Shown here in pieces: positions 8,081-29,576 of a stretch of 54,559 nucleotides of DNA. The number at the start of each line of letters is the position of its first letter. The stretch's first letter is position 1. A model generated the notes under the pieces. The model made no database searches and was not told the DNA's origin. It was given only the letters and a program-made list of their open reading frames with translations. Source of the stretch: Chthoniobacterales bacterium (lineage in GTDB: Bacteria > Verrucomicrobiota > Verrucomicrobiia > Chthoniobacterales > JACTMZ01); NCBI GenBank assembly GCA_021463515.1, contig JAJTYZ010000070.1, positions 1 to 54,559 of the forward strand, given 5' to 3'. A program made the position numbers and the translations under genes.

Positions 8081-8875
8081 ATGAAGACACGAGGTTTTTT
8101 TACAATTTCTCCGAGGAATCCATGGAAGTGTAGGAGGGCATTTACCTTGGTAGAAATGTTGGTAGCCGTCGCCATTTTGATATTTTTGGCGATGCTGCTT
8201 ATTCCTGGAATTAAGGGTGTGGTTTCAAAATCTCAAGGCGTCCATTGCATGAGCAATCTACGCCAAATTGGCTTGGGAGTTGCCAGCTATACCGCAGAGC
8301 ACAATGGGGCATTTCCTCGGGGCGGTTGGAATGATGGGAATGGTGTACCGTTTGAGCAGCCTTATTTAGATGGCATCGCGTGGCTGTCGGACATCTACCC
8401 TTATGTGGGAGAGAACCGAGACATCTTTGTGTGTCCTTCGGGAAAAAACCAATCTCCTACGGGTCTTTCCTCGTGGATTCGTATGCCAGGCGGTAAATCC
8501 TCCGATCCCAAATACCCCTTTCATTACGCGTACAATGCGCACCTCAATTCCAATCGGCTCAATTTACTTAACAACACGCACGTTCAGGCATTTGTAAATA
8601 GGGTGGCGGCGGTGCGGAATCTTTCGGGACTTCCCGTTATGATTGACATTGTTTTTCAGAATAATTTTTCCGGTGATTTTCCGGTTTTTGAACCCAATCC
8701 CTCCGACACAGCCGCCCAAATTTTTGCAGCGCGACATAGTGAGAGAGGCAATGTGTTGTGGGGAGATGGCTCGGTAAGCTCCATGACATTCAAGGAGTGG
8801 GTAAGTGCTCCTGCGACACGAATTTCTAGTGGAAGTTGGAAAAACTACCGCTTTTGCACAGGAAATTATCCATGA
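8081..8875 (+). CDS. type II secretion/prepilin-type pseudopilin with H-X9-DG domain
   Basis: RRAFTLVEMLVAVAILIFLAMLLIPGI N-methylation motif; C-terminal HSERGNVLWGDG = H-X9-DG. Confidence 0.9.
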   Translation: MKTRGFFTISPRNPWKCRRAFTLVEMLVAVAILIFLAMLLIPGIKGVVSKSQGVHCMSNLRQIGLGVASYTAEHNGAFPRGGWNDGNGVPFEQPYLDGIAWLSDIYPYVGENRDIFVCPSGKNQSPTGLSSWIRMPGGKSSDPKYPFHYAYNAHLNSNRLNLLNNTHVQAFVNRVAAVRNLSGLPVMIDIVFQNNFSGDFPVFEPNPSDTAAQIFAARHSERGNVLWGDGSVSSMTFKEWVSAPATRISSGSWKNYRFCTGNYP

Positions 8876-10557
8876 CAATTCTCCGCCTTTTACCTGCGAG
8901 CGTCGTTCTTATCGGCATTATCACTTTTGCGTCCTGCAAGAAACAACCAGCACCTATTGCCTCTATTGATAAAACGGAAGATCTCCGCCACCGGCTTGAA
9001 CAGGCACTTGCGACGGGAGAAAAAGAAATTGTTTTGCCGCCGGGGCGTTACCGTGTGACACCAAAAAACCGCGAACATTTGGCTCTCCGTGGCGTATGTG
9101 ACCGCGTCATTATTGCCGATGGTGTGGAGGTAATATGCACCGAAACGACACGCGCCCTGACCATTGAAAATTGCCATAATGTGACATTGCGTGGCCTGAC
9201 GATTGACTATGATCCGTTGCCTTATACGCAGGCTCGCATTGAGGAAATTTCGTCCGACGCGTCGCGGCTGAAAGCCCGCGTGATTGACGGCTATCCGCAC
9301 GCGGAAGCAGGTTCGGGGAGCGTCGAAATTTTTAATCCCGAGACCAATCGTTTGCGGGGACGAATGACTTATTATGGCACGCGTTTTGAGCCTATGGCAG
9401 ATGGTATGGTGTTATTGGTTAAGAATCGCGTGCAGCCGGAATTGGCGATGGAGAGGGGGGGGGATATTGCGGTCTTTAAGGTTCCCCACGCACCCGGAGG
9501 AGAAATGCCGCATGCGATTATGTCAACCGATAGCACCGGATTGGTTTTTGAAAATGTGACACTCTATGCCTCAAATGTTTTTGGGTTTTTCGAAAACGGA
9601 TGCGATGGCTCTAAATATCTTGGTTGCACGGTGGAACGTCGTCTGCTGGATCGCGACATCTTGCCACGGGCCTATCCGCGTTTGCGCTCGTTAAATGCCG
9701 ATGCCTACCACTCCAAAAATGCGCATCATGGCCCAACTTATGACCACTGCGTGGCGCATTTTATGGGGGATGATGCGATTGCCATTAATGGCGATTTTCA
9801 TTTTGTCACGCAAGGGGAAGGGCGTGTTTGGCGGGTGTTGGCTAAGGGAAAGATGAACATGCAAACGGGTGATGAGGTGCAGATATTCACTTACGATGGT
9901 AGGCGTTTGGAAAATCGAAAAATTCTTTCACTAACGCCGGATGGTACGGCTACGGAGGAGGAACGTGAGCTGGTGATACAACAGCAGATGAATGAGGCGC
10001 TGCGAAAGACAGGGCTAACATCCGCATGGCGCGTGGAGTTAGACCGTGTGGAAAGTGTTCCACCGGGCACCTTGATTTGTTCTGCCGATCGTATTGGCAA
10101 CGGATTTTCTATTCGCAATTGCCATGTAGGCTTTAATCGTTCGCGTGGCATTTTGGTCAAAGCCGGACATGGAGAAATTTCCGATAATGTGATTGAGGGT
10201 TCTGTTATGACCGGCATTTTAATTTCGCCGGAATACTGGTGGTTGGAGGCGGGACTTGCGGATGATCTTATCATTGCCAACAACCGCATTGAGCAAGGCA
10301 GCGGCATGGGAATTGCGGTGGTTGCCGAGGGAGGAGATCACACCCTGGCACCCGCCGGTGCTTTCCGTTCTCTTCGCGTCATTGGAAATATCATTCGTGG
10401 CGGAGCTTCGCCTGGGCTTCTTCTTACATCCATTCGTGGCCTTACCGAGGAAAACAACACGGTAGAACCAGACCCAAATATAGAACTTCTCCCATGGCAT
10501 ATCGGACCGTGGGGGCACGACGGAATTACGCCTGTCATACACATGAACGTCGAATGA
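8872..10557 (+). CDS. lipoprotein with right-handed parallel beta-helix repeats
   Basis: Lipobox FASC, then IENCHNVTLRGLTIDYDP, IRNCHVGFNRSRGILVKAGHGEISDNVIEG repeats; ATGA overlap with preceding gene. Confidence 0.85.
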   Translation: MTILRLLPASVVLIGIITFASCKKQPAPIASIDKTEDLRHRLEQALATGEKEIVLPPGRYRVTPKNREHLALRGVCDRVIIADGVEVICTETTRALTIENCHNVTLRGLTIDYDPLPYTQARIEEISSDASRLKARVIDGYPHAEAGSGSVEIFNPETNRLRGRMTYYGTRFEPMADGMVLLVKNRVQPELAMERGGDIAVFKVPHAPGGEMPHAIMSTDSTGLVFENVTLYASNVFGFFENGCDGSKYLGCTVERRLLDRDILPRAYPRLRSLNADAYHSKNAHHGPTYDHCVAHFMGDDAIAINGDFHFVTQGEGRVWRVLAKGKMNMQTGDEVQIFTYDGRRLENRKILSLTPDGTATEEERELVIQQQMNEALRKTGLTSAWRVELDRVESVPPGTLICSADRIGNGFSIRNCHVGFNRSRGILVKAGHGEISDNVIEGSVMTGILISPEYWWLEAGLADDLIIANNRIEQGSGMGIAVVAEGGDHTLAPAGAFRSLRVIGNIIRGGASPGLLLTSIRGLTEENNTVEPDPNIELLPWHIGPWGHDGITPVIHMNVE

Positions 10558-11480
10558 TCACACGCCTCTTTACGCTCATTTTATTTTTCCTCTGCGCCGT
10601 AACAGGAGGTCATGCGGAAGATGTTCCAAAGACGTTGCGGCTGTTAACGGTAGGAAATAGTTTTGCCTATAACGCCACCAAATTTCTTCCCGACTTAGCG
10701 AAAGCTTCGGGGAATAAGATTGAAATTCACGCGGCAAATTTTCGAGGTGCCTCCTTGGAACTGCATTGGAAAACAGCCCAACTTGCAGAGAACGGAAAAT
10801 CTTCGGGGGCCATTTACCCGCCCAAAAAGAGAGGGGCACCCAAACGTACACTGAAGGATTTTTTGCAGGACGGTACGTGGGACATTATCACCATTCAACA
10901 GGCGAGTGCTCTCAGTGATGATGCGACAACCTATCGCCCGTTTGGCCCCAATCTCGTGGCCTATCTCAAAAAATACGCGCCACAAGCTGAGATCGTGATT
11001 CACGAAACATGGGCATATCGCAACGATGATCCGCAATTTAAGGGTGGTAGTACTCCCGCCACCATGCACGACGGATTGCGCCGTGCTTACCGAGAACTCG
11101 GCGAGGAACTTGGCCTGCGTGTTGTTCCCGTAGGAGATGCCTTTGCGCTGGCGGCCACGCGGCCGGAGTGGACATTTCGAGCAGATGCGTCGTTTGATCC
11201 TTCCACAATCAATTACCCCGAAGTGCCGCCACAACCGCACTCCCTGCATGTGGGATGGACTTGGTTTATGAAATCAAAGGGGCCGAAGTTTGCGCTCGAT
11301 GGACATCACGCCAATATCTTTGGCCAATACTTGGGCTCTTGCGTATTTTACGAATTTCTTTTTAACCGCAGTGTGATTGGCAATCCGTTTGTTCCAACCG
11401 GCATCACTCCTGACCAAGCACGTTCGCTGCAAGAAATTGCCCACGAAGTACGAGGCACCGTCCGTGCCCAGGCTCATTGA
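10554..11480 (+). CDS. secreted SGNH/DUF4886-like hydrolase
   Basis: Signal peptide then LRLLTVGNSFAYNATKFLPDLAKASG and late DGHHANIFGQYLGSCVFYEFLF; ATGA overlap. Confidence 0.75.
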   Translation: MITRLFTLILFFLCAVTGGHAEDVPKTLRLLTVGNSFAYNATKFLPDLAKASGNKIEIHAANFRGASLELHWKTAQLAENGKSSGAIYPPKKRGAPKRTLKDFLQDGTWDIITIQQASALSDDATTYRPFGPNLVAYLKKYAPQAEIVIHETWAYRNDDPQFKGGSTPATMHDGLRRAYRELGEELGLRVVPVGDAFALAATRPEWTFRADASFDPSTINYPEVPPQPHSLHVGWTWFMKSKGPKFALDGHHANIFGQYLGSCVFYEFLFNRSVIGNPFVPTGITPDQARSLQEIAHEVRGTVRAQAH

Positions 11481-13135
11481 TGATGAAGTCACCTTTGATT
11501 TTTGAACCTTCTCCGCATCGTGATTTTACGCCGCTCGTTCGCGAGGCCTTGTGTCATTCCGCGTCCCCTCATTTCATTTTTAAACCCGGACATTACAATT
11601 TTCATCCGACCTTTGCTCTGGAGCACTATGTGTTTGTTTCCAATAATGATGAAGGACTCAAGCGAATTGCCTTCCCACTTTTTGGGCGGCAAGGCGTGAT
11701 GATTGAGGGAAATGGGGCACTCTTTATTTTTCATGGAGGCATTGTCCCTTTTCTCGTGTCACAGTGCTCCAAAGTTTGTCTGCGCGGATTTTCCCTTGAT
11801 TGGAAAATCCCTTTTCACGGAGAAGCGGAGGTGTTGACTGCAGATTCTCAAGGTGCTGATGTTCTGATTCTCGAGGGGTTTTCTTATCGTGTCGAAAACG
11901 ACCGTCTCGCTTTTGGTACAGAGCCGTTTGAAGTGCGGAACATTCTTGCTTTTGATGCCCTGCGGCGGGAAACCGCTTTTTTGACACGCGATCATTACGG
12001 CGTCGTTCCTCGTTGTGTGCCCAGTAAAACTATTCCCCGCGGGGTCCGCCTAGAAATGGCCTTTAACGACCCGCTTCCTGCACCGGGTGATATTCTCGCG
12101 ATCATGGGTGAACGACGCGATTATCCGGGCATCATCCTCGATGGCGTTGCTGAGGCGACTTTAGAAGACATTACAATTCATCACGCAGGAGGGATGGGCA
12201 TCATTGCGCAGCGCAGTGAAGATATTACCCTGCGCCGCGTCCATGTTACTCCCTCGGAAGGACGCATGATTTCCACGACGGCGGATGCCACGCATTTCGT
12301 CCATTGTCGAGGTCACGTTCAGATCGTTGATTGTGTTTTTGAAAATCAGATGGATGACGCTGTGAACATTCATGGTATTTATGCGCCGATTGTGGAGAGT
12401 TCTTCGCCGGAGATCGTACTTGTACGGCTCCGTCACCCGCAGCAGTTTGGGGCAACCATCGCGAGGGTGGGGGATCAATTGGAATTGGTGCGTGGGACGA
12501 CGTTGGAGACTTTTCATAAAACCACCGCAGATCAGGTGGAGATTTTGAATAAGGAATATGTGCGTCTTCGACTTGGGGATGAAATCGCCGAGGAAATTCA
12601 TCCCGGAGATGTCCTCAACAACCTCACATGGCATCCCAGCATTGAAATTCGTGCTTGTCGTTCTTGCGGCAATCGCGCTCGTGGATTTTTGCTTTCCAGC
12701 AATCAGAAAACAGTGATTAAAGATAACGAATTTCACACACCGGGTGCAGCGATTCTGGTGGCGAGTGATGCCTACGATTGGTTTGAGAGCGGGCCGGTGG
12801 AGAGCCTGCTGATTCGTGGTAATCGCTTTCTAAATTGCAATTATGGCATCTGGGGCCATGCCGCTATTCAAATTCTTCCTCGCATTGCAAAGCCTGATTC
12901 TTCCCTGCCGCGTTATCATCGCAACATTCGTATCGTTGAAAATTATTTCGAGGTCTTTGATGCCCGACTCATTTATGCTCGCAGCGTGGAGGGTTTGGAG
13001 ATTGAAAAGAATCACATTCTTTTTACCGATGTGTATCCTTCTCAACATCGAAGTTCCGAGGCCTTCGAGATCAAACAATGTGTCCAAGTAAAGCTTCATG
13101 ATAATGTCTTTGAAAACGAAACACCGTTTGTATGA
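11480..13135 (+). CDS. right-handed parallel beta-helix protein without obvious signal peptide
   Basis: LEDITIHHAGGMGIIAQRSEDITLRRVHV, QIVDCVFENQMDDAVNIHG repeats. Confidence 0.82.
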   Translation: MMKSPLIFEPSPHRDFTPLVREALCHSASPHFIFKPGHYNFHPTFALEHYVFVSNNDEGLKRIAFPLFGRQGVMIEGNGALFIFHGGIVPFLVSQCSKVCLRGFSLDWKIPFHGEAEVLTADSQGADVLILEGFSYRVENDRLAFGTEPFEVRNILAFDALRRETAFLTRDHYGVVPRCVPSKTIPRGVRLEMAFNDPLPAPGDILAIMGERRDYPGIILDGVAEATLEDITIHHAGGMGIIAQRSEDITLRRVHVTPSEGRMISTTADATHFVHCRGHVQIVDCVFENQMDDAVNIHGIYAPIVESSSPEIVLVRLRHPQQFGATIARVGDQLELVRGTTLETFHKTTADQVEILNKEYVRLRLGDEIAEEIHPGDVLNNLTWHPSIEIRACRSCGNRARGFLLSSNQKTVIKDNEFHTPGAAILVASDAYDWFESGPVESLLIRGNRFLNCNYGIWGHAAIQILPRIAKPDSSLPRYHRNIRIVENYFEVFDARLIYARSVEGLEIEKNHILFTDVYPSQHRSSEAFEIKQCVQVKLHDNVFENETPFV

Positions 13136-14658
13136 CGTCACAGCCGAACATTCTTCTCATTACCAGCGATCAACAGCATTGGCGCACATTAGGAAAAAAT
13201 CTTCCGGGGATTAAAACCCCCAATCTTGATCGCCTTGCCGATCAGGGAACGCTTTTTCATCGCGCCTATTGCCCCAACCCCACCTGCACACCCACGCGTG
13301 CTTCACTTCTCACAGGACAACAACCCTCGCGCCATGGTGCTTGGTCTCTTGGCACAAAACTTTCTGAATCGGCGGAGACTGTCAGTGAGCTTTTTTCTCA
13401 AGCCGGCTACGATACCGCTCTCATTGGAAAAGCTCATTTTCAGCCTTTGCGTGAAACGCCGGAGTATTCTTCGCTGGAGAGTTATCCCCTTCTGCGTGAT
13501 TTAGATTTTTGGCGCAACTTTCACGGGCCGTTTTACGGCTTTGAGCATGTGGAATTGGCTCGCAATCATGGCGACGAATGTCATGCCGGGCAGCATTACG
13601 CGCTTTGGATGGAGGAAAAGGGACTGACGAATTGGCGGGATCATTTTCACAATCGTTGGAACGAATTTGCCTTTGGCGAAAAAATCAATCCTCCGCAAAA
13701 ACACCGATGGACACTCCCCGAAGAATTTCATCCCAATGCGTGGATCGCCGAACGTTCCATCGTGCGCATGGATAAGGCGCAACAGGAAGGAAAGCCGTTT
13801 TTTTTATGGGCAAGTTTTTTTGACCCGCATCCTCCCTACCTCGCTCCCGCACCATGGGACACGATGTATGATCCGAACACCGTCGAAATTCCTTCAGCAG
13901 ACCCCGAGGAATTAGAAAATGCGACACCGCTTTTGCGCGAAGCGATGAAGGAAAATCCGGACTTCAGCGCATGGCAGGAAACCGAATTTGAAAATCACGG
14001 ACTGCATAGTCATGTGCATGACCGCGCGACGTTGGCAAAAAATATCGCCGTTTATTATGGAATGATTAGCCTTCTGGATAAATACGTCGGGCGTATTTTG
14101 GATCACCTTGACGCCACGGGGATGGCAGAAAACACCCTTGTCGTTTTTACGTCGGATCATGGTCATTATTACGGTCACCATGGTCTCATCGCGAAAGGGC
14201 CATTTCACTTTGAAGATGGTATTCGGGTTCCTTTTCTTGCACGAGGCCCGGGTTGGCGTCGTGGGGTTGAAACCGAGGCACTGACCAGTCTTATTGATCT
14301 CCCTGTGACATTTCTTTCCGCAGCGGGGATCAAGATTCCTCGCATGATGCAAGGGGTAGATATGGGGCCTGTTTTGCGCGGGGAAAAGAACGCGGTGAGA
14401 GACAATGTGGTGGTGGAATTTCGACATCAGCCATCCGCGCTGTATCTCAAAACTCTCGTGGAGTCAGGGCACAAACTCACTGTCTATTTCGATCAACCCT
14501 ATGGCGAACTTTACGATCTTGAGGCTGATCCGGGAGAAACGAGAAATCTTTGGAATGATCCCTCGCGGGCAGCTTTGCGTGAGGAGCTAACGCGTCGTCT
14601 CCTGTATGCTGAAATGGGTGCCGAGCCGCTGTGGATGCCACGCCTTTCCAATGCGTGA
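13132..14658 (+). CDS. sulfatase (Cys-type, S1-like)
   Basis: NILLITSDQQHW, CTPTRASLLTGQQPSRHG (C-x-P-x-R), FTSDHGHYYGHHGL. Confidence 0.93.
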   Translation: MTSQPNILLITSDQQHWRTLGKNLPGIKTPNLDRLADQGTLFHRAYCPNPTCTPTRASLLTGQQPSRHGAWSLGTKLSESAETVSELFSQAGYDTALIGKAHFQPLRETPEYSSLESYPLLRDLDFWRNFHGPFYGFEHVELARNHGDECHAGQHYALWMEEKGLTNWRDHFHNRWNEFAFGEKINPPQKHRWTLPEEFHPNAWIAERSIVRMDKAQQEGKPFFLWASFFDPHPPYLAPAPWDTMYDPNTVEIPSADPEELENATPLLREAMKENPDFSAWQETEFENHGLHSHVHDRATLAKNIAVYYGMISLLDKYVGRILDHLDATGMAENTLVVFTSDHGHYYGHHGLIAKGPFHFEDGIRVPFLARGPGWRRGVETEALTSLIDLPVTFLSAAGIKIPRMMQGVDMGPVLRGEKNAVRDNVVVEFRHQPSALYLKTLVESGHKLTVYFDQPYGELYDLEADPGETRNLWNDPSRAALREELTRRLLYAEMGAEPLWMPRLSNA

Positions 14659-14669
14659 ATCGCGCCGTT

Positions 14670-15161
14670 ATGACTTCTTTGTGTCTCGACGTTTTTTTTG
14701 AAAAGGCAACTCCGCACGATTTTCTCTCGGTGGCGGCGTTAGATCGCGTTGTTTGGCAGGCATCGGCGGGTGGTAAATATATTCCCGATGGCGAGCACAC
14801 GTGGCGTATCTGGTGCGAACATGCCCTCACGGTTGTTGGGAAAGATTCGCAGGGAAAGGTAGTGGCTGCGTTGTTGGCGTTTCCTTGTGCGAATCAATCC
14901 TATTGCCTGCACAAAGTTATGGTGGCTCCGTCGCATCAAGGGCAGGGGATGGGTGCCAAGCTCTTCGATGTGCTGATCTCTGAACTTGACCGCCTCGGGG
15001 TAGATTGCTTCCTCACCGTTTCGCCGAGTAATACGAGAGCACTGAAACTTTATCGTCGTTACGGCTTCACGAAGGAAAATTTTGTGCAGGGCTTTTATCG
15101 TCCGGAAGAGGATCGCCTTATTCTCATACGGCAGAGCGTTGAAATGACAACGACGCGATGA
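14670..15161 (+). CDS. GNAT family N-acetyltransferase
   Basis: LHKVMVAPSHQGQGMGAKLFDVLISELDRLG...VSPSNTRALKLYRRYGF. Confidence 0.88.
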   Translation: MTSLCLDVFFEKATPHDFLSVAALDRVVWQASAGGKYIPDGEHTWRIWCEHALTVVGKDSQGKVVAALLAFPCANQSYCLHKVMVAPSHQGQGMGAKLFDVLISELDRLGVDCFLTVSPSNTRALKLYRRYGFTKENFVQGFYRPEEDRLILIRQSVEMTTTR

Positions 15162-16047: not shown

Positions 16048-17388
16048 ATGAAAATTGTCAGCATTACCGGGGAAGATGTTATTCCGCCTCTTGCCAGCAG
16101 CCTATGGAAGCCCAAGAGCGACCTCTTCGATAAATGCGCGGCCTATGATGAACCGGCGCGGGCAAGGGCATTGGGGATTTATCCGTTTTTTCGGCCGATT
16201 GAGGAAATGGACGGAGCGGAAGTTCTATGTGAGGGCAAGCGTGTCATCATGGTTGGTGCCAATAACTATCTCGGTTTGGCCAATGATCCCCGTGTCGTGG
16301 AAGCAGCGATTGCGGCTACGCGAAAGTATGGGCTCGGCTGTACAGGATCGCGCTTTCTGAGTGGGAATTTGATGATTCACGAGCAATTGGAAGAATCTCT
16401 GGCGGCTTATATGGAGAAGGAGGCATCGCTTCTTTTTTCAACAGGATATTTTGCCAATCAAGGTGCCTTGACGAGTTTGTTTGAGGACGGAGATTACATT
16501 CTTTGCGATAAAGAAAATCACGCCAGCCTCATTGATGGATGCCGTATGTCCGCGGCCAAAATTATTCCTTTTTCCCACAATTCTCCGGATTCCTTGCGGC
16601 GACGTTTGGCACGCTTGCCGGCAGAAGCGGGGAAGATGGTTGTGATTGATGGGGTCTTTAGCATGTCGGGTGATATTGCGCGATTGCCGGAATTAATGGC
16701 TGTTGCAAAGGAGTTTGGAGCCAAGTTTTATGTGGATGAGGCTCATGCTCTGGGTGTCATTGGTCCGGATGGACGTGGAACGGCACACCATTTTGGAAAG
16801 GCCAATGATGCCGATCTTATCATGGGGACATTTTCAAAATCTCTTGGTTGCATGGGTGGATTTCTTGCCGGTGATGAAGATGTGATTCAATACATTCGCC
16901 ATAAAGCGCGGTGTTTTATTTTTACCGCATCACCGCCTCCGGCTGTGGCAGGTGGTGTCCTTCGTTCTTTGCAAATTATGCAGGAGGAACAATGGCGGAT
17001 GGTTAAGCTTTGGGAAAATACCCATCGCATGCACAAGGAGTTTCGTTCGCGAGGATTCCACATTGGAACGACGGAAACGCCGGTGGTACCAATTCTTGTC
17101 GGCGATGAACAAAAGGCTTTTTTCTTTGCGCAAAAACTTTTCGATAATGGCGTCTTTGCCACGCCGGCCATTTATCCTGCTGTACGTCGCGGTCAGGCCA
17201 TCATTCGCACCAGCTATATGGCCACGCATACGCCTGAGCAACTTGATCATGTGCTTGAAGCTTTCGAGCGCATTGCCTGTGAACTCCGCATCTTTGAAGA
17301 CGATGCCTACCAACGCGCCGCTCGTGAAATTCCACAAAGGCATCCACATCCGCCTGTGCCAAAGCCGGGCCGATCTGCGGCGATTTGA
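16048..17388 (+). CDS. serine palmitoyltransferase-like alpha-oxoamine synthase
   Basis: GANNYLGLANDPRV, GCTGSRFLSGNLMIHEQLE, DKENHASLIDGCRMS, VDEAHALGVIGPDGRG, PLP lysine GTFSKSLGCMGGFLAG. Confidence 0.85.
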   Translation: MKIVSITGEDVIPPLASSLWKPKSDLFDKCAAYDEPARARALGIYPFFRPIEEMDGAEVLCEGKRVIMVGANNYLGLANDPRVVEAAIAATRKYGLGCTGSRFLSGNLMIHEQLEESLAAYMEKEASLLFSTGYFANQGALTSLFEDGDYILCDKENHASLIDGCRMSAAKIIPFSHNSPDSLRRRLARLPAEAGKMVVIDGVFSMSGDIARLPELMAVAKEFGAKFYVDEAHALGVIGPDGRGTAHHFGKANDADLIMGTFSKSLGCMGGFLAGDEDVIQYIRHKARCFIFTASPPPAVAGGVLRSLQIMQEEQWRMVKLWENTHRMHKEFRSRGFHIGTTETPVVPILVGDEQKAFFFAQKLFDNGVFATPAIYPAVRRGQAIIRTSYMATHTPEQLDHVLEAFERIACELRIFEDDAYQRAAREIPQRHPHPPVPKPGRSAAI

Positions 17389-18460
17389 AAATTGCGCCGA
17401 GGATATTCTTGGCGACGCTCTGCAGTTTGTGCCGCCCATCCCGGGTGATGTGGCCGGCACCTTTTCTCCGAAAGCACCGTTTTCTCGGATGCACGGAGAA
17501 TTGGCCCCATTTCTTGCGCTTTACGAGGGACGCCCCGTAGGACGCATTGCGGCTATTCTCAATCGCTCCCATAATGAATGTCATCATGATCGCATGGGCT
17601 TTTTTGGGTTTTTCGATTTTGCGGATGACGCTGCGGCAGCCGCGCTCTTTGGGGCGGCTTGCGCGTGGTTGCGAGAGCGTGGCCTGACGTCCATTCGTGG
17701 CCCCTATTCGCCGAGCATCAATGATGTTTGCGGTCTGCTTTCTGAGGGATTTGAACTCCCGCCTTCGGTGTTTATGCCATGGAATCCGCCGCGTTATAGT
17801 GCCACCTATCGCGCCTTGGGATTAGAAGAAGTGCGCACGCTTTATTCATTCCGTATTCCCCTCGATGTTCCGGCTCCTGCGGTGGTGGAAAAAATGGCGC
17901 AACGTGCGCGGCAACGCAGTGGGCTTACCGTTCGTCCGTTTAATCTTCAGGCACTGAATGACGAACTTCGTATTCTGCAGCGTCTCTACAATGTCACTCT
18001 CGATCGTAATTGGGGTTATGTGCCGATTAAATGGGAAGACCTTGAACATTCCGCAGAAGGGCTCAAAGCCATTGCCGACCCCAATATGCTTTTCTTTGTC
18101 ATGCACGAGGGACGCGAGGTTGGCTATTCCATTTCACTGCCGAACATCAATATCTTCCTCCACCGCACGCGTTCATGGCCTCGTGGCGTTTGGCGGTTTT
18201 TACCGCTGTTGTGGTTTCTCAAAACGTCCAAGCCAGGAGATGCGAGGCATCTTATCCTTGGGGTGGAACCGGAGTTTCGTCATCGTGCGGGTGTGGCACC
18301 AATGCTGTTTCAGGAAACTTTCAAACGCGTGAGTGCCGCAGGAAATCCTTCTGCCGAGATTTCGTGGATCGAAGCTAATAATACCGAAATTGTACGCGCC
18401 ATTGAGGTAATGGGAGGGTATCAGGAAAAAACTTACACCATTTGGGAAAAGGAACTTTAA
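17303..18460 (+). CDS. GNAT-fold N-acyltransferase-like protein (candidate bacterial ceramide synthase)
   Basis: RLCQSRADLRRFENCAEDILGD...FFGFFDFADDAAAAALFGAACAWLRERGLTSIRGPYSPSINDVCGLL; ATG 17303 or GTG 17324; between SPT-like and epimerase genes. Confidence 0.7.
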   Translation: MPTNAPLVKFHKGIHIRLCQSRADLRRFENCAEDILGDALQFVPPIPGDVAGTFSPKAPFSRMHGELAPFLALYEGRPVGRIAAILNRSHNECHHDRMGFFGFFDFADDAAAAALFGAACAWLRERGLTSIRGPYSPSINDVCGLLSEGFELPPSVFMPWNPPRYSATYRALGLEEVRTLYSFRIPLDVPAPAVVEKMAQRARQRSGLTVRPFNLQALNDELRILQRLYNVTLDRNWGYVPIKWEDLEHSAEGLKAIADPNMLFFVMHEGREVGYSISLPNINIFLHRTRSWPRGVWRFLPLLWFLKTSKPGDARHLILGVEPEFRHRAGVAPMLFQETFKRVSAAGNPSAEISWIEANNTEIVRAIEVMGGYQEKTYTIWEKEL

Positions 18461-18466
18461 GGCGTT

Positions 18467-19459
18467 ATGCGAATTTTAATCACAGGAGCCACGGGATTTA
18501 TTGGACGCACACTTGTTATGCACGCTTTGCGAGACGACAGCATCACCGAAGTGATTGCGCCGGTGCGCTCGGTCGAGAAATTACGAACGCAACTTACACG
18601 GGAAGGGGTGCCGGAAAGCCCCAAGCTCCGCATCATGGAAGCCGAAGCTCCCGACTGGAATTTTCGTGATCTCGGTGCGGTTGATCGCGTGGTTCACGGT
18701 GCCGGCGTGTTGTTTAGCCGCTCACGCGATGCCTATTTTCGTATCAACGTCGAAGGAACGACGCAACTTTTGCAAACGCTTCGCGGCAGTCCGCGGGTTG
18801 TCATTCTTTCCTCACAATCAGCAGGGGGCCCCACGCCCAAGGGGGCTTTTGCGAAGAAGGTCGGTGATTCCGATCGCCCTCTCTCATGGTATGGTGCTTC
18901 GAAACTCCGCATGGAATTAGCAGTTCGTGAAATGGCACCCCGCTTTCCTGTTTTACTCCTGCGTGCGCCTATGGTTCTTGGCCCGGGCGATATGGCGACA
19001 TTGCCGCTTTTTCGGATGGTGCGTGGAAAAATTTGGCCCAAACCCGGATGGCGCTCGAAGTATTTTAGCTGGATTGCATCCGAAGATTTGGTGACAGCCT
19101 GCAACGCATGGTTTGCGCTGGATACCGCAGAAGTTCAAACCATGCACATCGCCGAACCCGATGTCATTTGTGACGCTCAACTCATGCGAACGGCAGCACT
19201 GGTAAGCGAACGGCGTGGCATTTTGCTTCCTGTCCCCCAGATGTTACTGCGCCTTGTCGCTCTCGCTTCCCAATTCATGCCGTCCATCGGCGAAAAAGTT
19301 CCCTCCCTCACTCCCGATCGCGCTCGTGAAATTTGGCCCAACCGTTGGGTATTGGATACAGAACCGTTTTACGAAATGACCGGTTGGCGTGGAACAGCAA
19401 CATTAGAAGAAACGTTAGCGCGAACTTTGGCATGGTTTCGACGTGAGGGGTTGATATGA
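18467..19459 (+). CDS. NAD-dependent epimerase/dehydratase (candidate ceramide reductase CerR-like)
   Basis: RILITGATGFIGRTLVMHAL Rossmann motif; Ser...SWYGASKLRMEL (YxxxK). Confidence 0.82.
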   Translation: MRILITGATGFIGRTLVMHALRDDSITEVIAPVRSVEKLRTQLTREGVPESPKLRIMEAEAPDWNFRDLGAVDRVVHGAGVLFSRSRDAYFRINVEGTTQLLQTLRGSPRVVILSSQSAGGPTPKGAFAKKVGDSDRPLSWYGASKLRMELAVREMAPRFPVLLLRAPMVLGPGDMATLPLFRMVRGKIWPKPGWRSKYFSWIASEDLVTACNAWFALDTAEVQTMHIAEPDVICDAQLMRTAALVSERRGILLPVPQMLLRLVALASQFMPSIGEKVPSLTPDRAREIWPNRWVLDTEPFYEMTGWRGTATLEETLARTLAWFRREGLI

Positions 19460-20028
19460 CGCAGAAAAAAAGGGCTACGGATAAAATGGAGGCACCCCCT
19501 ATCTTGACGATTGGACACTCGACGCGCTTGCTGGAAGATTTTATTGCGTTGCTGAAAGCCCATGGTGTCACCCGCATCGTGGATGTACGGACGATTCCAC
19601 GCTCGCGCCATAATCCGCAATTTAATCGCGAGAGCCTGCCGCAATCTTTGGAAAACGAAGGGATCGGCTACACGCATCTTGCAGAACTTGGGGGGCTTCG
19701 GCACACGAAGGAGCCATCGCCCAACACCGGTTGGCGCAACACGTCGTTTCGCGGCTATGCGGATTATATGCAGACGCCGGAATTTACGGCGGCCATCGTA
19801 CGCTTAATTGACATGTCGCAGCATGATCGCCTTGCGGTCATGTGCGCCGAGGCCGTTCCGTGGCGTTGTCATCGTTCGCTCATTGCCGATGCGTTACTTG
19901 TTCGAGGCATTCCGAGCGAAGATATCCAAAGCCTTACCCGCACACAGCCTCACAAGCTTACACCATTTGCTAAAGTGGAGGGGCAACATATTACTTATCC
20001 GCCTGTGGATGCGCTGCCAGGATTTTAA
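19456..20028 (+). CDS. DUF488 family protein
   Basis: ILTIGHSTRLLEDFIALLKAHGVTRIVDVRTIPRSRHNPQFN...MCAEAVPWRCHRSLIAD. Confidence 0.9.
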   Translation: MTQKKRATDKMEAPPILTIGHSTRLLEDFIALLKAHGVTRIVDVRTIPRSRHNPQFNRESLPQSLENEGIGYTHLAELGGLRHTKEPSPNTGWRNTSFRGYADYMQTPEFTAAIVRLIDMSQHDRLAVMCAEAVPWRCHRSLIADALLVRGIPSEDIQSLTRTQPHKLTPFAKVEGQHITYPPVDALPGF

Positions 20029-24041: not shown

Positions 24042-27000
24042 ATGGCATCTCGAAAACGTTCCACTTCATCGCAGCTCCCTCGTGTTCCAAGCATTCGCGT
24101 TCGCGGGGCACGCCAAAACAATCTTCAAGGCATAGACCTTGATCTTCCGCGTGGACTTCTCCACGTCATCACCGGCCCCAGCGGTTCGGGAAAATCTTCG
24201 CTTGCCTTTGATACAATTTATGCCGAGGGGCAAAGGCGTTACATCGAAACATTTTCGCCTTACACGCGGCAATTTTTTGATCGTATGGACAAGCCGCGGG
24301 CGGATGTTATTGAGGGCATTCCTCCGGCGATCGCGATTGAGCAATCGAACAATGTTAAAACAACTCGTTCGACGGTTGGCACGATTACCGAGATTAATGA
24401 CTACCTCAAACTTCTTTTCCCTCGCCTCGCCATAGCGTCGTGTCCGTCTTGTCAGCGTCCGATTCGCCCCGAAACCGCACGGAGCATCGTGCGTGAGGTG
24501 CAATGTCTTTCTCGTGGAAAACACTTATTGGTGACTTTTCCGGTTGGAACGGGTGACAGCGAAAAGCGAACAGCGGCGCAATTTTTTTCCTTTCTTCAAC
24601 AGCAGGGCTATCTGCGAATTTGGAATGAGGGAAAAATTTTACGTACGGATGAAACGCCTCCGCCGACGCTTCCCGCGACGGTGCTGGTGATTCAAGACCG
24701 TGTGGAGAGTGATTCCGAAACGCGGCTTACCGAAGCTATTGAGGCGGCATTGCACCTTGGAAAAGGGCGCCTCGAAGTGATTGATGAGGACAATGGAAAA
24801 TCGCATCCCTTTTCTACAGGTTGGCATTGTGCATGGTGCGATATGGATATTCGTCCGCCGACTCCCGGACTGTTTAGTTTTAATCATCCCTTGGGTGCTT
24901 GTCCGGAATGTCGAGGATTTGGCCGGACGATAGGGTTGGATTGGCAACGGATCATTCCCGATCACAGCCGCACCTTGGCAGAAGGCGTCGTTCGCCCATT
25001 TCAAAACGGCATGGCCCAGGAATGTCAGGAAGACCTCCTTCGCCACGCCCGACGTCGCAAAATGGACCTTCATTGTCCGTTTCATTTGCTCCCGCAAGAT
25101 GATCAAAATTGGGTTATTCAAGGTGACCGCCGTGCGGGCGAATCTCTCAACGACGTTTGGGATAGTGATCGCTGGTATGGCGTGCAGGGATATTTTGATT
25201 GGCTCGAAACCAAGACGTACAAAATGCACGTTCGCGTACTGCTGAGTCGCTATCGCAGTTACAATGAATGTCCAAAATGTTTCGGTGGCCGTTTCCAGCC
25301 TGAAACGCTGAACTACCGACTCCGAGGAAAAGACAATGTGGCCCTCACGCTTCCCGAACTTGCGGCGAAACCGATTCATCATCTGCGTGATTTTCTCGTG
25401 GGGGTTGTCGTTCCATCCGGTGATCGCACCACGCAGCTTCTGCACGATCAAATTACATCACGACTTTCTTATTTAGTGGAAGTCGGACTTCCTTACCTCA
25501 CCTTGGATCGCCCTACGCGAACGCTTTCCGGTGGCGAAGTTCAACGCGTCAATCTCACAACATGCCTCGGTGCCTCGTTGGTGAATACTTTGTTTGTGAT
25601 GGATGAACCCAGCGTGGGACTGCATCCCCGTGATCTCGACCAACTCTTGCGCATCATGCGTAAACTCCGTGACAAAGGAAACACCCTCCTTGTTGTGGAG
25701 CATGACGAAGCGGTCATGCGTGCCGCCGATTGGCTCACGGATATTGGACCTGGGCGAGGGGAAACTGGCGGACGCCTCATGTTCAGCGGTTCGCCCACAA
25801 AAATCTCGGACGCTCAAAATTCGCTAACCGCCGATTTTCTTCTCGGGCGCCGCCACATTCCGATTCCCACCAAGCGACGCAAAGCCAAAAAGTTTTTACG
25901 TCTGCGTGGAGCCTCCTTGCATAATATCCGGAAACTTGATGTAGATTTTCCACTCGGCGTTTTCACCTGCGTCACGGGTGTCTCCGGCTCGGGAAAATCC
26001 ACCCTTGTTCACGGACTTCTTCACCACAATCTTCGGCGTGAACGCGGGGAGATGGTGGAGGGCGATGCGGGAGTGATAAAAAAAATAACCGGCATTGAAC
26101 ATGTGGGCGACGTGGTGATGGTGGACCAATCTCCACCCGGGAAATCCTCCCGCTCCACGCCGGTCGTTTACATTGGCGCATGGGACCCTATTCGAGAACT
26201 TTTCGCCCATAGTGGCGCGGCTAAAGCCGCAGGACTGACAGCGTCATCCTTTAGCTTCAATTCCAATCACGGACGTTGCGAACGTTGTGCAGGACTGGGT
26301 TATGAACGCGTGGAAATGCAGTTTCTAAGCGATGTTTCGCTGGTCTGTTCCTCCTGCGGTGGCAAACGTTTTCAGCCTCATGTACTCTGCGTGTTGCTCG
26401 AAGGAAAATCGGTGCATGACATCTTGGAAATGACGGTCACCGAGGCGTTGAGCTTTTTTAAGACTTTTCCAAAGCACGAAAAGATTACGAATTTGTTGCA
26501 AACCCTCGCGGATGTGGGGCTGGGGTATTTGAGATTGGGACAACCCACGAGTTTTCTTTCCGGCGGCGAATCCCAGAGACTTAAATTGGCGGCTCATCTT
26601 GCCGATGCGGATGCCGAGGCTTCTTTGCTGCTTTTTGATGAACCAACAACGGGTCTTCACCTTGATGACATCGAACGCCTCCTTAGCGTTTTTCAACGCC
26701 TCGTGGATGCGGGACACACCCTCATTGTCATTGAACACAACACGGAGGTCATTAAAAGTGCAGACCACATTATTGACATTGGCCCCGAGGCAGGCGAAGG
26801 CGGCGGACGCATTGTGGCTACGGGGACTCCCGAAGAAATTGGACGTTCGACGGAAGCTCGAACGGCCCCATTTTTGCGAGAGGCATTGGAAAAGAGTGAA
26901 GACAAGCCAACCCTGCGTGTGGCGGAAACCGGCACAGCACCGGTACTCGCTGACAATGGGCGCATTCGCATCAGTGGTGCACGTGAACACAATCTCAAAA

Positions 27001-29576
27001 ATATCTCGCTCGAAATTCCACGAGATGAGTTTGTCGTTGTGACGGGATTGAGCGGCTCCGGAAAATCCTCTTTGGCCTTTGATATTCTTTTTGCGGAAGG
27101 TCAGCGACGATTTTTGGACTGCATGTCCACCTACGCTCGGCAGTTTGTGGGGCAAATGGAAAAGCCGGATGTGGATCATATCGAAGGTCTCCCTCCCGCC
27201 GTTGCCATTGAGCAGCGCATTTCACGTGGAGGTGGAAAATCCACGGTGGCGACCATTACGGAGATTCATCATTTCCTGCGCTTGCTCTACTCGAAACTTG
27301 GCACGCAATACTGTCCGCATTGCCACATTCCCGTGGCCAGTACCACCCTTGCGGAAGTGGCGGATAAACTCCGTGCATTTTCCGAAGTTGGCACCGTACA
27401 AGTTTTTGCTCCGCTCATTAAATCCCGCAAGGGCTATCATAAGGACGTCGCCGCGTGGGCTGTGCGGCATGGTTTCGAAAAACTTCTCGTGGATGGGCAT
27501 TTTATCAATGCCGACCAATTCCCCGAACTCTCACGCTATCGCGAACATTCGATTGATGCGCTCGTGGGACAAATCACCCGTGCCAGCGAGGAAGAAGCTC
27601 TCGATCTTGCCCGACGCGCTTTGGAAATTGGTAAAAATACCGCTCGGCTCGTACGCGGAAATGAAAACGAGTTGCTGAGCATTGAAATGTCTTGTCCCTC
27701 GTGCGCTCGCGCTTTTGAGCCCCTCGATCCAAGAATGTTTTCCTTCAACTCTCCACACGGTTGGTGTGAAACCTGCCGTGGCTTCGGGCTCGTTTACGAT
27801 CGTGATTTTCAGACCGATCAGGCCCACACCCAACTCGAGGCCGACCTGCAGGAAGAGCAGGCTCGCGAAGATGTCGAAGAAGGAACAGCCCATCCGTGTC
27901 CGGAATGTGAGGGCGTTCGCCTCAATGTGGAAGCACGCCATGTTATGGTGCAAGAACATCCCATCGCCGACTTTACCCGTGCGAGTGCCCGTGAAGCCGA
28001 GCATCTGTTGGAGAGTCTCCTATTTCATGGAAATGACGCCACGCTGGCCGCAGACATTCTTCCTGAAATTCGGCAACGCCTAGGATTTATGCGGCGGGTT
28101 GGATTGGATTACCTCACGCTCGATCGTCCGGCGACAACTCTTTCCGGTGGCGAGGCCCAGCGTATTCGTCTTGCAGCACAGCTCGGGTCTAATTTACGCG
28201 GTGTCCTTTATGTGCTTGATGAACCCACGATCGGACTTCACGAACGTGACAACCGTAGCTTGCTTGATGCGCTGGAGGAATTAGTCAAACAAGGTAACTC
28301 ACTTCTCGTCGTGGAACATGATGAGGCGACGATGCGCCGCGCTTCACGCGTGATTGATCTCGGCCCCGGGGCGGGCACTCGGGGCGGAGAAGTTATGGCG
28401 ACGGGAACCCTGCAAGAAATCCTGCGTTCGGAAAATTCTGTCACCGGACGTTGCCTCGCGCATCCCACACCGCGCCCCTCGCGTGGCAACCGACGCTCCC
28501 TCAAAGATGCCGATCTGCACTGGCTCGAATTACACGGCGCTTCGTTGCACAATTTGAAAAATATCAATGTCCGCATTCCCCTTGGACGACTGACCGTGGC
28601 TTGTGGCATTTCGGGTTCCGGAAAGTCCTCTCTCCTGCGTGGCACCCTTGTTCCGGCGCTAAAAGAAACCACAACGCGCCGTGGCCGAAAACCCGCTCGC
28701 AAAGCGACACCGCCGCCTTATGACAAACTTCTCGGCACGGAGCATGTGGCCGGCGTTCACATGGTGGATCAATCCCCCATTGGTAAAACTTCCCGCTCCA
28801 CACCGGCCACATATATTAAAGTCTTTGACGAAATTCGTCAGATTTTTGCCGGCCTTCCCGCAGCGCGTATGCGCGGCTATAATGCAAGTCGTTTTTCTTT
28901 TAATACCGATGGCGGACGCTGTGAAACCTGCCTTGGGCAAGGCGCAATTAAGCTCGAAATGAGTTTTCTTCCCACGAGTTGGCTCCCCTGCAGCGAGTGT
29001 GAAGGGAGCCGTTACAATCGTCAGACTCTCGATGTCACTTATCGTGGAAAAACCATCGCCGATGTCATGCGGATGACCGCCGCAGAAGCAGCGACATTTT
29101 TTGAACCCCATCCCAAGATTCATCGTGCACTTTCGTATCTCGTTGAAACAGGACTCGGTTATCTCACGCTGGGGCAACCAAGCCCGACGCTTTCCGGCGG
29201 TGAAGCACAGCGCATTAAACTCGTCACTGAACTTGCCCGAGCCGGTGGGGGAAAAAGTCGGCGGTTGCACGCTGATAAAGTCGGCAATTTTTATCTTCTC
29301 GAAGAACCGACGATTGGACTTCACATGGCGGATGTCGAGCAGCTCATAGCCATCCTTCATCGTCTCACAGATGAAGGCCATACAGTCGTGGTAATTGAGC
29401 ACAATCTCGATGTGATTGCCGAAGCGGACTACGTTCTCGAAATTGGCCCGGAGGCCGGAGCGGAAGGAGGGCACCTTGTAGCCGCCGGTACACCCGAGCA
29501 AGTTACGCTGATAAAAAACAGCCCCACGGCTCCCTTCCTTCAACCGCTTTTGACGCGTAAATCATCTCAGGACTAG
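24042..29576 (+). CDS. uvrA: excinuclease ABC subunit A, tandem-fused double UvrA (1844 aa)
   Basis: Four Walker A motifs ([36 protein letters not shown]), four LSGGE signatures, duplicated CxxC zinc modules. Confidence 0.95.

Follow-up and report, generated by a model that had tools for sequence, protein, structure and literature searches.

Our results indicate that the three genes at positions 16048-19459 of the analysed window, which is the whole 54,559-nt stretch of DNA (contig C109 of a Chthoniobacterales assembly of 2.1 Mb and 65.7% completeness), very probably form a compact operon for ceramide synthesis. SPT would produce 3-ketodihydrosphingosine, the bacterial ceramide synthase (bCerS) would N-acylate a long-chain base, and CerR would reduce the 3-keto group, with dihydroceramide as the product. 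The identities of the enzymes rest on homology, phylogeny, diagnostic residues and synteny, while the serine substrate, the acyl donor and the product are what we infer from the genes. The initial annotation had proposed a candidate bacterial ceramide operon of Spt, bCerS and CerR, and this proposal was supported by the SPT tree, the homology to YghO/bCerS and the CerR profile score. The locus thus adds a well-supported case to a pathway that is already known and does not represent a new kind of system.

All three genes lie on the forward strand. The first, spt (16048-17388), codes for a 446-aa PLP-dependent α-oxoamine synthase with PLP lysine K264. The second, bcerS (17303-18460), codes from its ATG at 17303 for a 385-aa protein modelled as a tandem-GNAT N-acyltransferase and assigned by homology to the YghO/CC_1154 (bacterial ceramide synthase) family. 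The third, cerR (18467-19459), codes for a 330-aa extended SDR, a putative ceramide/3-keto reductase. These positions had been given correctly to the base in the initial annotation, and the motifs reported there (TGSRFLSG, DKENHASLIDGCRMS and GTFSKSLG in the synthase, and YxxxK in the SDR, which reads YGASK with Y142 and K146) were all present. The reported overlap of the first two genes was also confirmed and measures 86 nt (17303-17388), as was the 6-nt gap between bcerS and cerR.

Full-length homologues were found for all three frames. SPT was present in all 10 other genomes of the genus, and the order and strand of the trio were kept in each of them, so that spt-bcerS-cerR occurs in 11 of 11 sampled genus genomes. 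Since ten congeneric genomes carry the trio in the same arrangement, a binning artefact is argued against. The spt gene had 445-446 codons in all 11 genomes examined, and the bcerS ATG was located 86 nt upstream of the spt end (89 nt in one), that is, within 3 nt genus-wide. This conservation shows that both the long overlap and the bcerS start are genuine. The closest named relative of the SPT (63% identity) is encoded by a metagenome-assembled genome from a pond, which carries the label Verrucomicrobiaceae (L052). A scan for promoters and terminators gave no signal above chance.

Several lines of evidence identify the first gene product as an SPT. Among solved relatives, it scored best with the SPT of Sphingobacterium multivorum (414 bits), followed by the Sphingomonas SPT (291 bits) and a thermophilic AOS (290 bits), with lower scores for the other α-oxoamine synthases KBL (255), CFAT (236), ALAS (215) and BioF (203). 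The two top NCBIfam models were both SPT equivalogs, matched at 503 (503.5) and 401 bits and thus below their cut-offs of 640 (Bacteroidota model) and 500, which are curation thresholds rather than biochemical criteria and belong to models named for narrower taxa. In a tree of 42 α-oxoamine synthases, the protein fell within a 31-row SPT clade (SH-aLRT 99) that takes in all known SPTs of the tree, of both the E. coli/Roseomonas type and the Sphingobacterium/Bacteroides type, while KBL, BioF and HemA were placed outside. The phylogeny that the initial annotation had suggested as a check therefore groups this protein with characterised SPTs and not with KBL, AONS or HemA. Within the clade, it lies on the Bacteroidota/deltaproteobacterial side, outside the proteobacterial branch that uses AcpR. 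The residues that contact PLP and serine have been described for the S. multivorum enzyme (PMC10196870), whose numbering is 20 lower than that of the present protein (K264 = K244). N72, S101, H158, S205, D230, H233, T261 and K264 correspond to N52, S81, H138, S185, D210, H213, T241 and K244, and two substitutions were observed among the compared contacts: Thr99 for Ala79, and Ile291 for Met271, a main-chain contact.

The substitution at Thr99 bears on an alternative product. If the SPT-like enzyme preferred alanine or glycine over serine, the operon would make 1-deoxy-ceramides or another N-acyl amino-ketone lipid. The S. multivorum SPT can also use alanine and glycine, although inefficiently (PMC10196870), distant Spt-like proteins were considered possible (1-deoxy)ceramide makers in a Black Sea study (PMC11334938), and Ala79, the position changed to Thr99 here, is proximal to the side chain. 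However, the serine-contacting side chains N72 (Asn52), H158 (His138) and S101 (Ser81) are kept, and Thr at the Ala79 position is also found in the aligned proteobacterial SPTs of E. coli and Roseomonas. We thus regard this alternative as very unlikely. A sulfonolipid operon, in which a cysteate acyltransferase (SulA/CFAT) would act first and the N-acylation and reduction steps would be unchanged, is extremely unlikely. Such an enzyme shares the fold and superfamily, and sulfonolipid synthesis is thought to run parallel to ceramide synthesis, but Lys281, the residue that separates SulA from SPT (PMC9304779), corresponds to Ala294 here, as in SPT, and the score with CFAT was 236 bits versus 414 with SPT.

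The host genome encodes KBL (above the curated cut-off) and a BioF-type protein (407 of 426 bits, just under the cut-off) in separate genes, so the gene at 16048 is not needed for either role. The folds of α-oxoamine synthases and SDRs are common, but an ordinary KBL or BioF standing by chance beside an unrelated acetyltransferase and a sugar epimerase is a negligible prospect given these separate genes, the exclusion of KBL, BioF and HemA by the tree, and the conservation of the trio across the genus and many phyla. Taken together, the bit scores, the tree, the separate KBL and BioF-type genes and Ala294 rule out a KBL, BioF, HemA or SulA identity, and the gene is best read as spt.

No family in Pfam or NCBIfam matched the middle protein, and profiles of its homologues and a structure model were therefore used. 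In tblastn searches it matched E. coli YghO (about 30% identity over 97%) and a Roseomonas protein. The Roseomonas homologue is flanked by LptF/LptG and a nucleotidyltransferase, and its cluster also holds acpR, spt, aasR and an SDR; this is the arrangement of Caulobacter CC_1154. YghO is the orthologue of CC_1154, and the epimerase encoded next to it is the orthologue of CC_1164 (PMC9386255); the E. coli and Roseomonas orthologues served as stand-ins for the Caulobacter proteins in our comparisons. A bCerS profile built without the middle protein gave it 311 bits, compared with 382 for YghO, so the comparison with bCerS called for in the initial annotation showed homology to YghO/bCerS. The AlphaFold model (pLDDT 91) matched tandem-GNAT structures with E values of about 1e-13; FemX and N-myristoyltransferase were further matches. 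The earlier description of a GNAT-fold-like 385-aa protein was thus right despite the lack of a Pfam family, and the model sharpens it to a tandem GNAT. The bCerS of this lineage is divergent, with 22-46% identity to other bCerS proteins. These results indicate that the middle protein is a tandem-GNAT member of the bCerS family, for which N-acylation of a long-chain base is predicted. Apart from this locus, E. coli K-12 MG1655 (L134, 3129043-3132408) has an IS5 copy at the place of the aasR-cerR-acpR-spt-lptGF stretch of PN43 (L038); its yghO is retained and annotated as a DNA-binding regulator, yet scored 380 bits with the bCerS profile.

The SDR carries the Rossmann glycine motif TGATGFIG (residues 6-13) in addition to Y142 and K146. 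A fold search returned generic extended SDRs and nucleotide-sugar epimerases only and was not discriminating. With a CerR profile built without this SDR and its nearest relative, it scored 208 bits, similar to the documented proteobacterial CerR orthologues (188-221 bits: E. coli epi 221, Pseudomonas 220, Roseomonas 188), while the best SDR paralogue of its own genome reached 120 bits. The comparison with CerR, also proposed in the initial annotation, hence placed the protein with that family. The CerR of this lineage is divergent as well (21-47% identity to other CerR). Its N-terminus coincides with the first Rossmann strand and is not extended, so that there appears to be no space for a signal peptide. 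Not all genomes of the same order have cerR beside the other two genes: L153, L155 and L156 (family f4) carry spt-bcerS without a neighbouring cerR and encode a strong CerR elsewhere. In three same-order genomes of this kind, the single strong CerR scored 227-232 bits, well above their other SDRs.

In the proposed pathway, SPT would form 3-ketodihydrosphingosine by condensing L-serine with the thioester of a long-chain acyl group, for which acyl-CoA is the most likely form. The tandem-GNAT bCerS would N-acylate a long-chain base and the SDR CerR would reduce the 3-keto group, giving dihydroceramide, either in this order, as proposed for Caulobacter, or in the reverse order. Work in Caulobacter supports acylation first and a periplasmic CerR (PMC11087976), and a different 3-ketosphinganine reductase is used in Bacteroides (PMC9278070). 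Because the CerR N-terminus appears to have no space for a signal peptide, all three steps might be cytoplasmic here, unlike the situation with the periplasmic CerR of Caulobacter. We tentatively suggest, with rather less than even confidence, that the locus is a minimal ceramide module of three genes, self-contained and lacking a dedicated ACP system, with a conserved 86-nt spt/bcerS overlap and all steps in the cytoplasm.

The SPTs of Caulobacter and related bacteria preferentially use acyl-AcpR, which AasR makes (PMC9386255). Neither AcpR nor AasR is encoded in the window. A search for AasR-like proteins in the host genome, two congeneric genomes and two genomes of the same order found none: AMP-binding matches were weak, at most 50 bits, against 545 and 770 bits for the positive controls. 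The initial annotation was right that a dedicated ACP and acyl-ACP synthetase are absent from the window; its corollary that they would have to be elsewhere needs changing, as none was found in the relatives examined either. The dedicated ACP/AasR pair characterises the proteobacterial branch and is not required by SPTs of the present type. Acyl-CoA, or the housekeeping ACP, is the likely acyl donor.

A DUF488 gene (19456-20028) follows cerR and is itself followed by cdsA, and these two genes may be co-transcribed with each other here. The remark that cdsA follows closely is true in the window. The lipid-flavoured neighbourhood (cdsA, dxr) read into it was not borne out, as an examination of 10 congeneric loci found neither CdsA nor Dxr close to the trio. 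This neighbourhood thus appears incidental, and cdsA, dxr and DUF488, being absent from the congeneric loci, were rejected as parts of a lipid operon. Recurrent neighbours in related genomes were also considered as head-group genes, and no conserved fourth gene was found by a neighbour clustering that is crude, because long antisense ORFs in GC-rich relatives spoil simple ORF picking. Upstream of the trio, congeners carry genes for what we take to be a RodA-like protein and for a secreted protein of uncharacterised function, and in G125 a presumed purA lies 3' of bcerS; the RodA and PurA names come from reading the sequence and not from a database match. Elsewhere in the window, an 1844-aa ORF at 24042-29576 resembles two tandem-fused UvrA copies, with repeated motifs in its translation. 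The upstream ORFs at 8836-15161 read from their translations as right-handed β-helix-like, SGNH-like and sulfatase-like, which hints at the use of sulfated polysaccharides and has no relation to the trio.

The linkage of the three genes extends far beyond the genus. Contigs were scanned with an SPT alignment, and of the 80 SPT loci from GTDB that are most similar to the present one, at least 46 had bCerS in the retrieved stretch, usually adjoining spt, and at least 19 had consecutive same-strand spt-bcerS-cerR; both counts were made by eye and are lower limits, because many contigs are short. The consecutive trio occurred, among others, in Sphingobacterium, Pedobacter, Dyadobacter, Mucilaginibacter, Gemmatimonadota and an acidobacterium, and also on Rubrobacter and Streptomyces plasmids. 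Spt-like genes have already been reported for Verrucomicrobiota, in 22 Black Sea genomes (PMC11334938). In an even sample of 195 Verrucomicrobiota genomes only a few reached SPT-range scores (above 480 bits), but the trait is general in the present genus. Our results provide firm gene-level grounds for expecting the uncultured Verrucomicrobiota of this genus to contain sphingolipids, and name three candidate genes for their synthesis.

Two further arrangements were observed during the survey. In a Bacteroidales metagenome-assembled genome (L128), two tandem low-scoring bCerS homologues come right after spt. In Verrucomicrobiota of another family (L011, L014, L015 and L016), bCerS homologues adjoin a different α-oxoamine synthase, about 36% identical, and no adjacent cerR was found within 1.5 kb. 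Synthases of this type, two of the four being included in the tree, formed a long branch outside the SPT clade. These loci possibly represent a second, unstudied pathway to N-acyl amino-ketone lipids.

Among known systems, the loci of Sphingobacterium, Pedobacter and Dyadobacter (L102, L117, L093, L101) contain the same three families in the same order and on the same strand, with genes that nearly touch and SPT identities of 46-49%. The Verrucomicrobiota side differs from them in its long spt/bcerS overlap, C-terminally extended SPT and divergent CerR. Consecutive spt-bcerS-cerR genes, nearly touching or overlapping, are also carried by plasmids of the Actinomycetota Rubrobacter radiotolerans and Streptomyces sp. 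NBC_01001 (L036, L039), with a condensation-domain gene added in Streptomyces. The aasR-cerR-acpR-spt and cerS genes of Caulobacter crescentus (CC_1165-CC_1162, CC_1154) and the yghO cluster of E. coli encode homologous Spt, CerR and CerS/YghO. Unlike those clusters, the present locus lacks an adjacent AasR or AcpR as well as linked genes for LptF2/G2 or head groups, and its cerS shares one operon with spt and cerR. It has been stated, from proteobacteria, that cerS is always in an operon different from that of spt and cerR (PMC11324152). Our results contradict this statement outside Proteobacteria, since cerS often shares one operon with spt and cerR across many phyla, and this weakens the salvage-pathway argument that was built on a separate cerS operon.
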